42,627 nucleotides of DNA from Pirellulales bacterium (GCA_019745975.1 JAIESQ010000023.1:1-42627); one strand, 5' to 3'; shown: positions 2,079 to 6,889, numbered from the stretch's first letter. The notes: generated by a model not told the origin, from the sequence alone. Translations and numbers: made by a program.

Positions 2079-3626
2079 TCAGCCCGCCTGCAGCCGCGCG
2101 ACCAGCGCCGCGTCGATCTTGGCCCGCACCGTGCGCCGATCGAGCTTCAGCCTGCGGGCGGTCGCCTCGTAGCTCCCGGTTTCGGCGAACACCAGCGCGC
2201 AGTAGCGGCGCAGCAAGTCGTCGGCCGTGAGTTGCCCGCCGAGCATGGCTGTCACGAGCTCGTCGCGCGCGGTCACGGGCGCCGCCGCTGGCGCAGTGGC
2301 GGGCGGCACATACGACCTGCGGATCAGCACGTTTCGCAGGCATTGTTCCAGCTCGCGAATGTTCCCGGGCCAGGCATAGTCAAGCCCCAAGTGTTCTTCG
2401 ATCCAGCGCATGACCTCGTCGGCGAGCGCCTCGCCGTCGGGGCCGATCGCTCGTTGAGCCAGGTGCGCGATGAGGTGTCGCAATTCGGCCGGATTGTCCT
2501 GCACGCGCGCCCAGAGCGCTGGCACTTCGATCATGTCGGAACAAAGGCGGTAATAAAAATCCTCGCGGAAGCGGCCAGCGCGCATTTCGGCCGCCAAGTC
2601 GCGATTCGTGGCGGCGATGATCTTGCCACGGAACTCGCGCGACTGGGTCTCGCCAATTCGATTGAATTCGCGCGACTGCAACACCCGCAGCAGTTTGACC
2701 TGGATGCTGGCGTCGAGCTCGCCGATTTCGTCAAGAAACACCGTTCCCAGTGGTGGGCAGACTTCGAGCCAGCCTTGCCGATCGTCGATCGCGCCGGTGA
2801 ACGCCCCGCGCTTGTGCCCGAACAGCTCGCTTTCGATCAGCGTGGCGCTCAAGGCCGAAAGATTAATGGCGTGGAATGAGCCGGCGAAGTCCTCATGGAA
2901 ACGGCCGGCCGCCGCGTCGAAGGGAATATAGCGCGACAGCCCGATCGCTTGCGCCACAAGCTCCTTGCCGGTGCCCGAGGGCCCGGTGACCAGTGTGGTG
3001 TAGTCGGCCATGCGGGCGAAGAGCGTGCGTCGGTAGCGGCGCATGTCGTGCGTGAAGATCGATTCCCACACCTGGGCGCGCAACCGCACGGCAGGGCGCG
3101 AGACGCCGAGGATCAGTCGAAAGATGTTGCCAAACGCGCGGCGAATCTGAAAGAACCCGGCAAACAAATGCGGGAGTTGCTCGGCAAGCGTGCTGCGACC
3201 GGCCAGCGGCGCGAGCATGCGCTCGGCATCGCCGGCCAGCGCGCGATAAAGCTTGCCTGCCTGGCTCACTGCCTGGCGCCCCGAGGTGGCGATCAATTCG
3301 TCGAAACCAAAGCGATGCCGGTGATAGAGGACTGCCAGCAGAAAGTCCTCGTACAGCGGCGCCTCGCTGGCGTGCGCATCGGGATGACGCGCAAGTCGCT
3401 CGCGAGCGTGCTCGAGCGTCGCTTCACCGCGCGCCAAGAGCCGTTGCAAATTGGGGTGGTCGTGTTCGTCCTCGTAGCGCACGTTCCAATCGGACAAGTG
3501 CGAGTCGAATTCGGCGCCTAGGGCCGTCTGCTCACAAGCGATCCGCTCGGGCAGAAAGGGATTCGTATGAGCAAGGCGCACGACCGCTTCGACGAACTTG
3601 CGATCGGCGGGCGTGAAGAGCGCCAT
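2079..3626 (-). CDS. Sigma-54-dependent transcriptional activator with unrecognised sensor domain
   Basis: This 515-residue bacterial enhancer-binding protein would remodel sigma-54 RNA polymerase using ATP. The central AAA+ domain carries Walker A G-P-S-G-T-G-K-E (about residue 215), the sigma-54 contact loop G-A-F-T-G-A (about 275), Walker B V-F-L-D-E-I-G and the sensor motif A-T-N-R-D-L. A Fis-type helix-turn-helix lies at the C-terminus (S-Y-E-A-T-A-R-R-L-K-L-D-R-R-T-V). The N-terminal 190 or so residues are helical and are not a response-regulator receiver, PAS or GAF domain that I recognise, so the input signal is unknown. The ATG at 3624-3626 is preceded by GAGGTG at 7 bases; a longer reading adds 14 residues without a better site. 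It is monocistronic. A TGTACAT palindrome at 3688-3704 may be an operator. Confidence 0.9.
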   Translation of the reverse strand: MALFTPADRKFVEAVVRLAHTNPFLPERIACEQTALGAEFDSHLSDWNVRYEDEHDHPNLQRLLARGEATLEHARERLARHPDAHASEAPLYEDFLLAVLYHRHRFGFDELIATSGRQAVSQAGKLYRALAGDAERMLAPLAGRSTLAEQLPHLFAGFFQIRRAFGNIFRLILGVSRPAVRLRAQVWESIFTHDMRRYRRTLFARMADYTTLVTGPSGTGKELVAQAIGLSRYIPFDAAAGRFHEDFAGSFHAINLSALSATLIESELFGHKRGAFTGAIDDRQGWLEVCPPLGTVFLDEIGELDASIQVKLLRVLQSREFNRIGETQSREFRGKIIAATNRDLAAEMRAGRFREDFYYRLCSDMIEVPALWARVQDNPAELRHLIAHLAQRAIGPDGEALADEVMRWIEEHLGLDYAWPGNIRELEQCLRNVLIRRSYVPPATAPAAAPVTARDELVTAMLGGQLTADDLLRRYCALVFAETGSYEATARRLKLDRRTVRAKIDAALVARLQAG

Positions 3627-3687
3627 GTCGGGGCACCTCGAGGTGTCGTGTTGCGATGCCGTCGTCAACTAGATGGACTGCTCAAAC

Positions 3688-3704
3688 TGTACATCCAATG
3701 TACA
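3688..3704. promoter_or_regulatory. Palindrome TGTACAT-CCA-ATGTACA, candidate operator
   Basis: A perfect 7-bp inverted repeat with a 3-base centre lies 62 bases upstream of the sigma-54 activator start, in the 263-base region between divergent genes. A further half-like TGTAC follows near 3719. The symmetry suggests a dimeric DNA-binding protein, possibly the activator itself or a regulator of the divergent VIT/vWFA gene. The binding protein is not identifiable from sequence. Confidence 0.4.
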
Positions 3705-3889
3705 TCGACCGTCATGCAGTGTACGAATCGGCCTGGACAATCGGGTATCACTCGGCGATTCATGATTACTGTAAGTATCTTTCAACAAGCTACTTGCGAC
3801 AACAAAAGGACGAGCGGCACGGGATGTGATCTATCGCACGGTAGCCCGACAGTTGAGATCGGGCGGCGACTCGTTCAAGGAGCCTTGTG

Positions 3890-6115
3890 ATGTCACGCGA
3901 AACGTACCACTCGAAACCTACAAGACCCCGGCGTTGGTCGCATCGTCTGCTCGCCGGCGCGGCCGCTCTGGCCGTGATTCTCTGGGGAGGCACGGGCGCG
4001 CCACACTGCCGCGCGGCTGGTTTGTTGATCGCCGACGGCGGGCTGGGCGGCGTACTGGAAATCCAAGAGCAGGACGTTCGCGTCACGATCAACAACGGCA
4101 TCGCCGTGACCGAAGTCGAGCAAGTATTCAAGAATACCGAGCAGCGCGTCGTCGAGGCGCTCTACACGTTCCCGGTGCCGAAGCGGGCCTCGGTCGCCGA
4201 CTTCAGCATGTGGATTGGCGGTCGCGAGATGGTCGGCGAAGTCGTCGAGAAGGAACGTGCCCGGCAGATCTACGAAAGCTACAAAGTGCAGAAGCGCGAT
4301 CCCGGCCTGCTCGAGCAAGTCGACTACAAGCGCTTCGAGATGCGCATTTGTCCGATTGCGGCAGGCGCCGAGCAGAAGGTGCGCGTCGTCTACTACCAGG
4401 AGCTGGAGTTCGACCACGATCGCGCCAGCTACACCTATCCGCTGGCCACGAACACCACGACGGCGGCAAACGCCGCGGCCAAGGGGCGTTTCTCCTTCGC
4501 GCTCGACGTGAAAAGCGCCGTGCCGATTAGCGAGCTGAAGAGTCCATCGCACGTCGGACAGTTCGTCGTCGTGCGGCACACCGATCCGCACTACTGGCAG
4601 GCGAGCCTGGAGACGAGTGGCGGCGACCTGTCACGCGACGTGGTCATCAACTATGCCGTCGAAAAACCCCACACGGGGGTCGATCTCGTGACCTCGAAGC
4701 CCGCCGGCGAAGACGGCTACTTCCAGTTGACGATTACCGCCGGTCAGGAGCTCGAAAGCAAGCTCAAGGGGAGCGACTACATCTTCGTCATCGATGTTTC
4801 GGGGAGCATGATGAACGACGGCAAGCTGGCCGTCTCGCGCGACGCCGTGGCTGCTTTCGTCGAATCGTTGGGCGAAGATGATCGCTTCGAGCTGATCACT
4901 TTCAATATCGCCGCCAATCCGCTGTTCCGTGCCAGCACGCCAGTGACGACCGACAGCAAAGCGCGGGCGATCGAGTTTCTGCGATCGCAGCAGGCGGTCG
5001 GCGGCACCGTGTTGCGGCCGGCGATCGAAGCGGCTTATCGCTACTACGACAACGATCGGCAGTTGAACGTCGTCGTGCTCTCCGACGGCATGACGCAGCA
5101 AGGGGAGCAGCGCGAACTCTTGGCGCTGATCGGCCAGCGTCCCGCGGGGGCTAGCGTCTTCTGCGTGGGCGTGGGGAACGAAGTCAATCGACCGCTCTTG
5201 GATCAGCTCGCCACGGAAACGGGTGGGTTGGCGGCCTTCATGTCGGCGGGCGACGATTTCGCCGGGGCGGCCCAAGCGTTTCGCCGCAAGCTCACCCGCC
5301 CCGCCGCGCGAAACGTGAAACTCAGTTTCGCGGGGGGCGAAGTGTACGACGTCGAACCGCAAACGCTGCCGAACCTGTTCCACGGCCAGCCCATCCGGCT
5401 GTATGGCCGCTACAAGCAAAGCGGGCCGGCCAAGCTGCAGCTCTCGGCCGAAGTGCTCGGGGCGCCGCTGGAGCAAACGGTCGACGTCACGCTGCCGCCG
5501 CAAGACGACAGCAACCCCGAGATCGAGCGGATGTGGGCCTTGTATCGCGTCGAGCGCTTGATGGGACAGGATCGCCGCACGGGTTCGCGCGGCTCGTTCG
5601 ACGAGATCGTGCGACTCTGCGAGGGGTATTCGATCGCCGGCGAATACGCATCGTTCATCGTGCTGGAGAACGACGCGGAATACCAGCGTTGGAAGATCGA
5701 GCGCCGCAACGTCACGCGAGTCGGGCGCGATCGTCGGGCGCAAGCCGAGGTCCGCGAGCAACTGGCCCAGTTGCGCGAGCAGACAGCTCAACAAGTTGGG
5801 CCCGCGCCGGCCGACAAATTGGCCAACAAACCGCTCGACTCGCAGCCACCGGCCGCGACGCCGACCGAGTTGGCGCAGGCCAACCCGACGACGCCCGACG
5901 CCACGCCGCCAAACATGTCGGCGCCTGAGCAGCAGCGATGGACTTCGGGGCCGACGATTGTCGACGAGTCGTCGCAAGGATCGTCTCGCGGCCGATCGGG
6001 CGGGGGCGGAGCGATCGATCCCGTCACAGCTTTGACCGCCGCCGGCATGGGGCTGGCGGGTTGTTGGGGCGCGCGGCGACGACGCCGTCGCCCGAAGTCC
6101 TCGCAAGTGAACTAG
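3890..6115 (+). CDS. Secreted VIT + von Willebrand factor A protein with C-terminal sorting-type tail
   Basis: The 741-residue product has a basic N-terminus and hydrophobic signal segment (about residues 15-43). A VIT (inter-alpha-trypsin) domain follows at about 45-175. Next comes a vWFA domain with an intact MIDAS start D-V-S-G-S-M at residues 302-307, so it is probably a metal-dependent adhesion or binding protein outside the cytoplasm. A Pro/Ala/Thr/Gln-rich linker leads to the tail: S-G-G-G-G (about 703-707), a roughly 20-residue hydrophobic segment containing one Cys (about 725), and six consecutive Arg. This matches the general plan of GlyGly-CTERM-like sorting signals, and a rhombosortase-like gene follows directly. 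There is no LPXTG motif. AGGAG at 3878-3882 selects the ATG at 3890 over the GTG at 3887. The VIT plus vWFA layout recalls the family called marine proteobacterial sortase targets. Confidence 0.9.
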   Translation: MSRETYHSKPTRPRRWSHRLLAGAAALAVILWGGTGAPHCRAAGLLIADGGLGGVLEIQEQDVRVTINNGIAVTEVEQVFKNTEQRVVEALYTFPVPKRASVADFSMWIGGREMVGEVVEKERARQIYESYKVQKRDPGLLEQVDYKRFEMRICPIAAGAEQKVRVVYYQELEFDHDRASYTYPLATNTTTAANAAAKGRFSFALDVKSAVPISELKSPSHVGQFVVVRHTDPHYWQASLETSGGDLSRDVVINYAVEKPHTGVDLVTSKPAGEDGYFQLTITAGQELESKLKGSDYIFVIDVSGSMMNDGKLAVSRDAVAAFVESLGEDDRFELITFNIAANPLFRASTPVTTDSKARAIEFLRSQQAVGGTVLRPAIEAAYRYYDNDRQLNVVVLSDGMTQQGEQRELLALIGQRPAGASVFCVGVGNEVNRPLLDQLATETGGLAAFMSAGDDFAGAAQAFRRKLTRPAARNVKLSFAGGEVYDVEPQTLPNLFHGQPIRLYGRYKQSGPAKLQLSAEVLGAPLEQTVDVTLPPQDDSNPEIERMWALYRVERLMGQDRRTGSRGSFDEIVRLCEGYSIAGEYASFIVLENDAEYQRWKIERRNVTRVGRDRRAQAEVREQLAQLREQTAQQVGPAPADKLANKPLDSQPPAATPTELAQANPTTPDATPPNMSAPEQQRWTSGPTIVDESSQGSSRGRSGGGGAIDPVTALTAAGMGLAGCWGARRRRRRPKSSQVN

Positions 6116-6211
6116 GTTGTGGGCGGGGCGCCGCCGTGGGCTGCTTGGGAGCTGCGTACCCTCTCAGTGCAGCTCACGGCTTTTCTTGATTCGCAAACAG
6201 GAGATGGGCCA

Positions 6212-6889
6212 ATGACCGCCAACTTTAGCGACGCCGACCGTGGCCGGCCGCTCGCGACTTACCGGCCGATGGCCGCCGTCGGATGTGCGATTTTGGCGGT
6301 AGCAATCTGGCTTGTGCCGGGAGCGGCCGAGTGGCTGCAATTCGATCGCGGAGCGATTGCCGCGGGAGAAATCTGGCGCATCGTCAGCGGTCACTTGACG
6401 CATTGGAACGGCGATCACTTATTGTGGGACGTGCTGATGTTCGCCGTGCTTGGTGCGCTGGTGGAACGGACCAGCCGCGCCAGTTTTCTGGCAACGACGG
6501 TGCTGTCGGCGCTGGCGATCTCCGCGGCGCTATGGTTCTTGCAGCCGGCCCAAGTTCTATATCGCGGCTTGAGCGGAATCGATTCGGCCTTGTTCGTGTT
6601 TCAGGCTATCTGGCTGGCGCGCGAGGCGCTGAGCGAAAAACGATTCGCGGCCAGCGTGCTGCCGATGGTGGCGCTCGCCGGTTTCGTCGGCAAGGTGGGC
6701 TACGAATACGCCAGCGGCTGCACGTTGTTCGTCGATTCGGCGGCGGCCGGCTTCGCGCCGCTGCCCCTGGCGCACGTGATCGGCGGCCTGGTCGGCGCAG
6801 CGGTCTTAGCGGCCCGTGAAGCGGCTACTTGCTTAACGAGAGTTGACGAAGGGCCGTGGCGCCAGTGGTCGGCGAGGCTGTCTCGATGA
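6212..6889 (+). CDS. Rhombosortase-like rhomboid intramembrane serine protease
   Basis: The 225-residue polytopic membrane protein has about six hydrophobic segments. The order of motifs is H-L-T-H-W-N-G-D-H (61-69) after the first helix, Y-R-G-L-S-G-I-D-S (117-125) with presumed nucleophile Ser121, and L-P-L-A-H-V-I-G-G with presumed catalytic His188. This layout, including the short length, fits the rhombosortase (RrtA) branch of rhomboids, which cleaves GlyGly-CTERM proteins in the membrane; the membership call is from memory of the motifs. The ATG at 6212 has AGGAG in the bases just upstream; a GTG at 6119 would add a non-protein-like leader. The gene lies 96 bases after the vWFA gene on the same strand, which makes that protein the obvious substrate. 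Its 3' end overlaps the convergent efflux gene by 65 bases. Confidence 0.75.
   Translation: MTANFSDADRGRPLATYRPMAAVGCAILAVAIWLVPGAAEWLQFDRGAIAAGEIWRIVSGHLTHWNGDHLLWDVLMFAVLGALVERTSRASFLATTVLSALAISAALWFLQPAQVLYRGLSGIDSALFVFQAIWLAREALSEKRFAASVLPMVALAGFVGKVGYEYASGCTLFVDSAAAGFAPLPLAHVIGGLVGAAVLAAREAATCLTRVDEGPWRQWSARLSR

Follow-up and report, generated by a model that had tools for sequence, protein, structure and literature searches.

A probable dedicated rhombosortase sorting pair with a variant enzyme and a divergent sigma-54 activator in a Pirellulales bacterium

The DNA analysed here as a whole, referred to as the window, is a stretch of 42,627 nucleotides from a Pirellulales bacterium (GCA_019745975.1 JAIESQ010000023.1:1-42627), and it quite probably encodes a dedicated rhombosortase sorting pair, whose VIT/VWA cargo would be cut, anchored and displayed at the surface, probably under the switch of a sigma-54 activator. 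This reading builds on what the sequence comparisons establish, i.e., the family membership of the enzyme, the one-to-one adjacency of the two genes, their joint presence and absence, and a conserved activator neighbour with its palindrome. The pair itself is ordinary and already described, and what merits further attention is the branch to which the enzyme belongs, together with the activator and its palindrome; neither the altered surroundings of the active site nor the activator with its palindrome, both unusual features, had been listed in an earlier note on this DNA. The features concerned are the following:

2079..3668, minus strand: gene of a sigma-54-dependent activator of 529 aa, divergent from the cargo gene (PF00158, 160.5 bits)
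3688..3704, no strand: palindrome TGTACATCCAATGTACA, exact over 17 bp (arms TGTACAT and ATGTACA around CCA), predicted activator site
3815..3830, plus strand: weak sigma-54 -24/-12-like sequence CGGCACGGGATGTGAT, the -12 GC missing
3890..6115, plus strand: VIT/VWA cargo gene, 741 aa, candidate substrate of the rhombosortase, with Pfam matches
3890..4018, plus strand: signal-peptide-like segment of the cargo (basic n-region, hydrophobic core, ...CRA-AG), read from the translation
5999..6022, plus strand: tail signature motif GGGGAIDP, conserved in relatives as GGGA-[ILF]-DP
6023..6073, plus strand: tail hydrophobic segment VTALTAAGMGLAGCWGA, with a Cys codon at 6062-6064 (Cys not conserved)
6074..6091, plus strand: hexa-arginine cluster, predicted cytoplasmic, read from the translation
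6212..6889, plus strand: rhombosortase gene, 225 aa
6572-6574 (Ser121 codon) and 6773-6775 (His188 codon), plus strand: predicted catalytic pair of the rhombosortase, from residue alignment
Asp124-Ser125 and Asp73 of the same product, plus strand: variant positions, from residue alignment

The earlier note had described the product of 3890-6115 as a secreted vWFA protein ending in Gly-rich, hydrophobic (with one Cys) and hexa-Arg segments, and both the reading frame and the segments were found as described. In the Pfam search the protein carries a VIT domain at residues 58-168 (PF08487, E 3.6e-31) and a VWA domain at residues 298-450 (PF13768, VWA_3, E 9.2e-19; PF00092, E 2e-14), in which the sequence reads as an intact MIDAS-type metal-site motif, DVSGS, and a Pro/Thr/Ala-rich linker of low complexity joins the VWA domain to the C-terminal tail. 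The C-terminus is laid out as SGGGGAIDP, VTALTAAGMGLAGCWGA and RRRRRRPKSSQVN, with the hexa-Arg RRRRRR directly after the helix, and this tripartite tail ends only a few residues further on. Against TIGR03788, the model of a marine sortase target, the cargo scores 233.2 bits and does not reach the cut-off of 551.65.

By its sequence, the 6212-6889 product is a rhombosortase, as a variant member of the family. It obtains 115.5 bits with TIGR03902 (116.5 in the genome scan; cut-off 84), and so scores as more than the generic rhomboid that would have spoken against the earlier proposal, and about 30 bits with the GlpG models, the cut-offs of which are 250-335. The short rhomboid with R-G-L-S-G and L-A-H motifs that had been noticed is recovered, with GLSG (Ser121), LAH (His188) and a length of 225 aa without a long N-terminal domain, and it is the sole copy over the TIGR03902 cut-off in the 7-Mb genome. 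Since canonical rhombosortases of Shewanella and Aeromonas reach 164-177 bits with the same model, the enzyme of the window is genuine, yet not a core member of TIGR03902; moreover, membership is claimed as a variant because the signature His is a reported hallmark outside the curated cut-off definition.

The tail fits the GlyGly-CTERM plan, with a Gly motif that is free of Cys, a helix and a basic cluster at the extreme C-terminus, and the tails of the main group hardly deviate from GGGA-[ILF]-DP. When scored against the curated CTERM models, as the earlier note had proposed, the tail of the window passed none of them (MYXO 14.1 against a cut-off of 20, PEP 12.9 against 16, MprA_tail or TIGR03867 8.2 against 19.7, TIGR03501 unlisted). 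Two sibling tails, at loci L013 (22.7 bits) and L023 (29.9 bits), are over the TIGR03867 cut-off of 19.7, and as this model describes a Ralstonia-type GlyGly-CTERM variant, the form of the tail is that of a known variant. The hydrophobic part of the planctomycete tails consists of A 29%, G 18% and L 18%, as compared with L 34%, G 13% and A 10% in the published canonical GlyGly-CTERM helix (PMC3237569). A tail restricted to planctomycetes was rejected, given the siblings that pass TIGR03867 and the tail GAGSMDPFTW found beside a rhombosortase in Cupriavidus metallidurans; the bearer of the latter tail, on a megaplasmid (L072 1224-3887, plus strand), is an ExeM/NucH-type nuclease, and its neighbour, a rhombosortase of the Tyr type (GFSGVNYG), does not follow the His-type rule.

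The Cys within the helix, which had been proposed to mark a variant, is real but incidental, as it occurs in 8 of 58 helices only and lies at the cytoplasmic end, and its low frequency also led us to reject it as a lipidation site. A Cys-based system resembling MYXO-CTERM, with the helix Cys lipidated, is accordingly extremely improbable: the single helix Cys and the rank of MYXO-CTERM as the best-scoring sub-threshold tail model would fit it, but the Cys of MYXO-CTERM belongs to the signature motif (PMC3237569, PMC11980579), where it is invariant in TIGR03901 and absent from GGGGAIDP, and the paired enzyme is a rhomboid, whereas myxosortase is one of the CPBP/CAAX proteases, an unrelated family.

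In its own genome the tail profile finds one place (E 1.8e-13), the next match having an E of 0.03; the remaining matches were rejected as further substrates, being PEP-CTERM tails (VPEPST...) or chance frames. At least 10 PEP-CTERM tails of the PEPST type are present in this genome (e.g., L045-L050, L052, L053, L056 and L060), so that an exosortase system probably operates there in parallel.

Across genomes, samples of the phylum (26 of 391 genomes) and of the class (29 of 397), together with the close relatives, yielded 53 distinct planctomycete loci over the cut-off; 50 of them were readable for the neighbour count, from which the contig-edge loci L131, L140 and L147 were left out. A tail is found next door in 46 of the 50, and in 45 of these 46 it belongs to a VWA relative of the window cargo, the last one (L024) being cut by the contig end; VIT and VWA are both present in three full-length neighbour proteins according to Pfam. 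The loci that have no tailed VIT/VWA neighbour are L033, L036, L026 and L027, of which the last two have another neighbour with a GGGGVGG tail. At L026/L160 and L027 this neighbour of the rhombosortase is a protein of about 320 aa with no Pfam match, a possible new cargo. Two genomes (G693 and G664) hold two rhombosortases each, and every copy stands beside its own VWA/GG-tail gene.

A real tail match (E up to 2.7e-5) occurs in 20 of the 391 planctomycete genomes, one in each among the candidates scored per genome, and in 20/20 the enzyme lies beside the tail; tail-bearing genomes lacking the protease, which the earlier note had named as evidence against its proposal, were therefore not seen. 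Six weaker matches miss the first part of the profile, and five of these are confined to its helix and Arg half. As the profile was built from tails beside rhombosortases, the positives are partly circular, and the informative part is the absence of extra tails: among the candidates scored per genome, none was found elsewhere, be it in the tail-bearing genomes or in the others of the 391.

The same holds at closer range, where the enzyme is over the cut-off in 4 of 30 close relatives, the own genome included, and a close cargo orthologue is present in all four of these and in 0/26 of the relatives without enzyme. The four orthologues are the cargo of the window and three proteins at 862-954 bits and 61-67% identity; the pairless relatives mostly hold a distant VIT/VWA paralogue (about 155-225 bits, 27-31%) without such a tail, and a distant tail-less paralogue is present in the own genome as well. 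Six other genomes of the same family contain no enzyme-cargo pair (0/6), which suggests that genomes acquire or lose the two genes together. The divergence of the enzyme correlates with that of the cargo (Mantel rho 0.40, 0/500 permutations), a correlation confounded with species relatedness. Overall, an arrangement that recurs in dozens of planctomycete genomes is more than chance, and the suggestion that the neighbour is a dedicated single substrate gains support from the uniqueness of the tail in the own genome, the repeated adjacency and the joint presence and absence. Two observations concern the composition of the locus in other genomes. In a Verrucomicrobia MAG (L041) the enzyme and the activator are 55% and 58% identical to those of the window and the cargo only about 32%, suggesting that the cargo body may have been exchanged; and at L166 (2910-3509, plus strand) and L041 (5398-5928, plus strand) cargo and rhombosortase are separated by an additional small open frame for which Pfam gives no match.

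The active site was compared in the 53 planctomycete rhombosortases over the cut-off, with residue positions numbered as in GlpG. Both catalytic residues, a Ser in TM4 (GxSG) and a His in TM6 (AHxxG), are found in 53/53, together with a Lys (51/53) and a Glu (53/53) that are common to Shewanella- and Aeromonas-type rhombosortases, a pair absent from ten generic rhomboids. The surroundings depart from the canonical form. In virtually all rhombosortases the position of GlpG Tyr205 is reported to be occupied by His, and no other feature is said to predict the system as strongly (PMC3237569), whereas in the planctomycete enzymes it is Ser (25), Thr (22), Cys (2), His (2) or Tyr (2), and in the enzyme of the window it is Ser125. 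The residue preceding it is Asp in 42/53, and Asp also stands at the GlpG Asn154 position in 46/53. The replacement of the signature His by Ser suggests that the chemistry or the specificity of window-type enzymes may differ. An apparent co-variation between the Asp of the enzyme (SGxD) and that of the tail (A-x-D-P) was rejected, since L128 and L135 combine the enzyme motif SGIDT with GGGPIGP tails and the tail of L130 reads GGGAIGP, and an AlphaFold model of the enzyme derived from three sequences was discarded (mean pLDDT 51).

In a maximum-likelihood tree, a branch with support 99/96 separates 60 planctomycete-type sequences, including that of the window and a verrucomicrobial one, from the His-type enzymes (the planctomycete L021, L032 and L037 among them) and the generic rhomboids. 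As the canonical side is thinly sampled, with three proteobacterial sequences, this split is good evidence that the planctomycete-type rhombosortases form a distinct branch and says little of the branch's origin. The tree also bears on the notion of a tail that serves simply as a C-terminal membrane anchor, with a generic rhomboid adjacent by accident. The failure of the own tail to pass any CTERM model would agree with it, but TIGR03902 is passed with 31 bits to spare, the adjacency is repeated across many families with joint presence and absence, and the generic rhomboids of the same genomes fall into a clade of their own apart from the rhombosortases, all of which makes such an accident very unlikely.

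As for the working of the pair, the VIT/VWA cargo would be exported by Sec and remain in the inner membrane through its C-terminal helix, with the Arg cluster on the cytoplasmic side, and the neighbouring rhombosortase would cut it near the Gly-rich motif. By analogy with VesB and RssP of Vibrio cholerae, for which measurements showed that the helix is lost and that the newly formed C-terminal Gly carries ethanolamine or glycerophosphoethanolamine (PMC6219818), the new C-terminus would probably be transferred to an aminophospholipid, and the trimmed, anchored cargo would then be moved to the outer surface; it is by this analogy that we infer cleavage, its site, lipid attachment and surface location. 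Two parts assumed by a V. cholerae-like route exist in the own genome, namely a GspD secretin over the cut-off and a PS decarboxylase, with which PE can be made.

A rhomboid that merely releases the VIT/VWA protein as a sheddase, with no lipid attached, is a rather unlikely alternative. Most rhomboid proteases release their substrates, and the active-site surroundings differ from those of canonical rhombosortases, so that transfer activity cannot be assumed; in addition, some V. cholerae GlyGly-CTERM proteins are finally released by a second cut (PMC13393428). By contrast, the tripartite tail with few residues past the Arg cluster, the one-to-one pairing and the TIGR03902 membership match a sorting system, which is the reading we retain.

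This sorting system shares much with known ones. In genomes with a single target, the target and the rhombosortase are usually adjacent, with the planctomycete Rhodopirellula baltica SH 1, whose pair is GI 32476015/32476016, listed in 2011, and VIT/vWFA proteins with GlyGly-CTERM, PEP-CTERM or LPXTG tails were shown in the same paper (Haft and Varghese, PMC3237569). The novelty that had been claimed for a planctomycete single-substrate pair and for an adhesion-type cargo is not supported, each of the two having been published in 2011 (PMC3237569). With the dedicated rhombosortase/GlyGly-CTERM form (TIGR03902 with TIGR03501 or TIGR03867, e.g., in R. baltica, Opitutus and Ralstonia; PMC3237569) the window has in common an over-cut-off enzyme, one tripartite Gly-motif target, adjacent genes, a sporadic distribution and VIT/vWFA proteins among the targets. 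In a comparison that leaves the R. baltica pair outside, the clade of the window differs from the canonical rhombosortase system in Ser/Thr/Cys for the signature His, Asp at Asn154, the Ala-rich helix and the linked sigma-54 activator with its palindrome. In the case of RssP and VesB of V. cholerae (PMC6219818), too, the substrate of the rhombosortase ends in a Gly motif, a helix and a basic cluster but, unlike in the window, there are several targets per genome, the cargo is a protease and no dedicated target lies next door. The marine proteobacterial sortase with its VIT/vWFA target (TIGR03788 with TIGR03784) has a homologous cargo and a dedicated enzyme next door, but that enzyme belongs to the cysteine sortases, which act on LPXTG and have no relation to rhomboids. 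Finally, PEP-CTERM/exosortase with PrsK/PrsR (PMC1569441, PMC9850573) is also a sorting system with target genes under sigma-54 activators, whereas its enzyme and tail are others and PrsR is a response regulator (TIGR02915), unlike the activator of the window, which scores 167 bits with this model and does not reach the cut-off of 502.6. Adjacent pairs and VIT/vWFA tails are thus published, while none of the papers searched combines rhombosortase with sigma-54; what sets the window apart as a variant of this known kind is the enzyme branch and the activator with its palindrome. Single-target pairs avoid the many-to-one problem of rhombosortase biology, with one enzyme facing one adjacent substrate, and dozens of natural planctomycete pairs with altered residues beside the catalytic Ser allow a direct test of whether this region determines the specificity of rhombosortases, as has been claimed in the literature.

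The divergent activator consists of an AAA+ domain with a GAFTGA loop, a DNA-binding-like C-terminus and about 200 N-terminal aa without an assigned domain. Of the 42 pair loci examined, 17 have an orthologue in this divergent arrangement, a verrucomicrobial locus among them; among the relatives it is present in 4/4 pair genomes and in 4/26 pairless ones, there beside other genes, so that the linkage is frequent and an activator exclusive to the pair is ruled out. About 186 bases separate the palindrome from the cargo start, and even when up to 3 mismatches are allowed it is the single match in the whole window (chance expectation 0.15). Allowing the same number of mismatches, it recurs in 11 of the 17 activator-bearing pair loci, and its core TGTACA is the top enriched 6-mer when all 6-mers are counted, found in 12 of 16 activator-cargo intergenic regions (expected 0.7), as compared with 3 of 25 pair loci without an adjacent activator (expected 0.8). 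A strict sigma-54 -24/-12 sequence precedes the cargo in 15 of 42 loci (expected 2.8), in both the activator-bearing and the activator-less groups; in the window, a motif search found none.

These data are consistent with a divergent activator that would bind the TGTACAT palindrome and probably switch the expression of the cargo; direct regulation is a prediction from the sequences, and regulation of the pair is likewise inferred. The activator and its palindrome offer a handle on the timing of surface-protein display in planctomycetes and parallel the known sigma-54 control of PEP-CTERM proteins, and further TGTACATNNNATGTACA sites in planctomycete genomes would define the activator regulon. 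A more far-reaching idea, which we hold only tentatively, is that the branch with changed active-site surroundings (SGxD-S/T/C, Asn154-to-Asp) may follow another transfer chemistry or substrate rule and, together with a single VWA surface protein switched by its own sigma-54 activator via the TGTACAT palindrome, might form a self-contained, regulated surface-display cassette of planctomycetes and some relatives. In two pairless genomes the same activator is divergent beside a large protein (L250 1593-4184 and L252 3042-5945, both minus strand; frames of 864-968 aa), and these proteins have no Pfam match and end in GGG[AS]FF followed by hydrophobic and basic residues.
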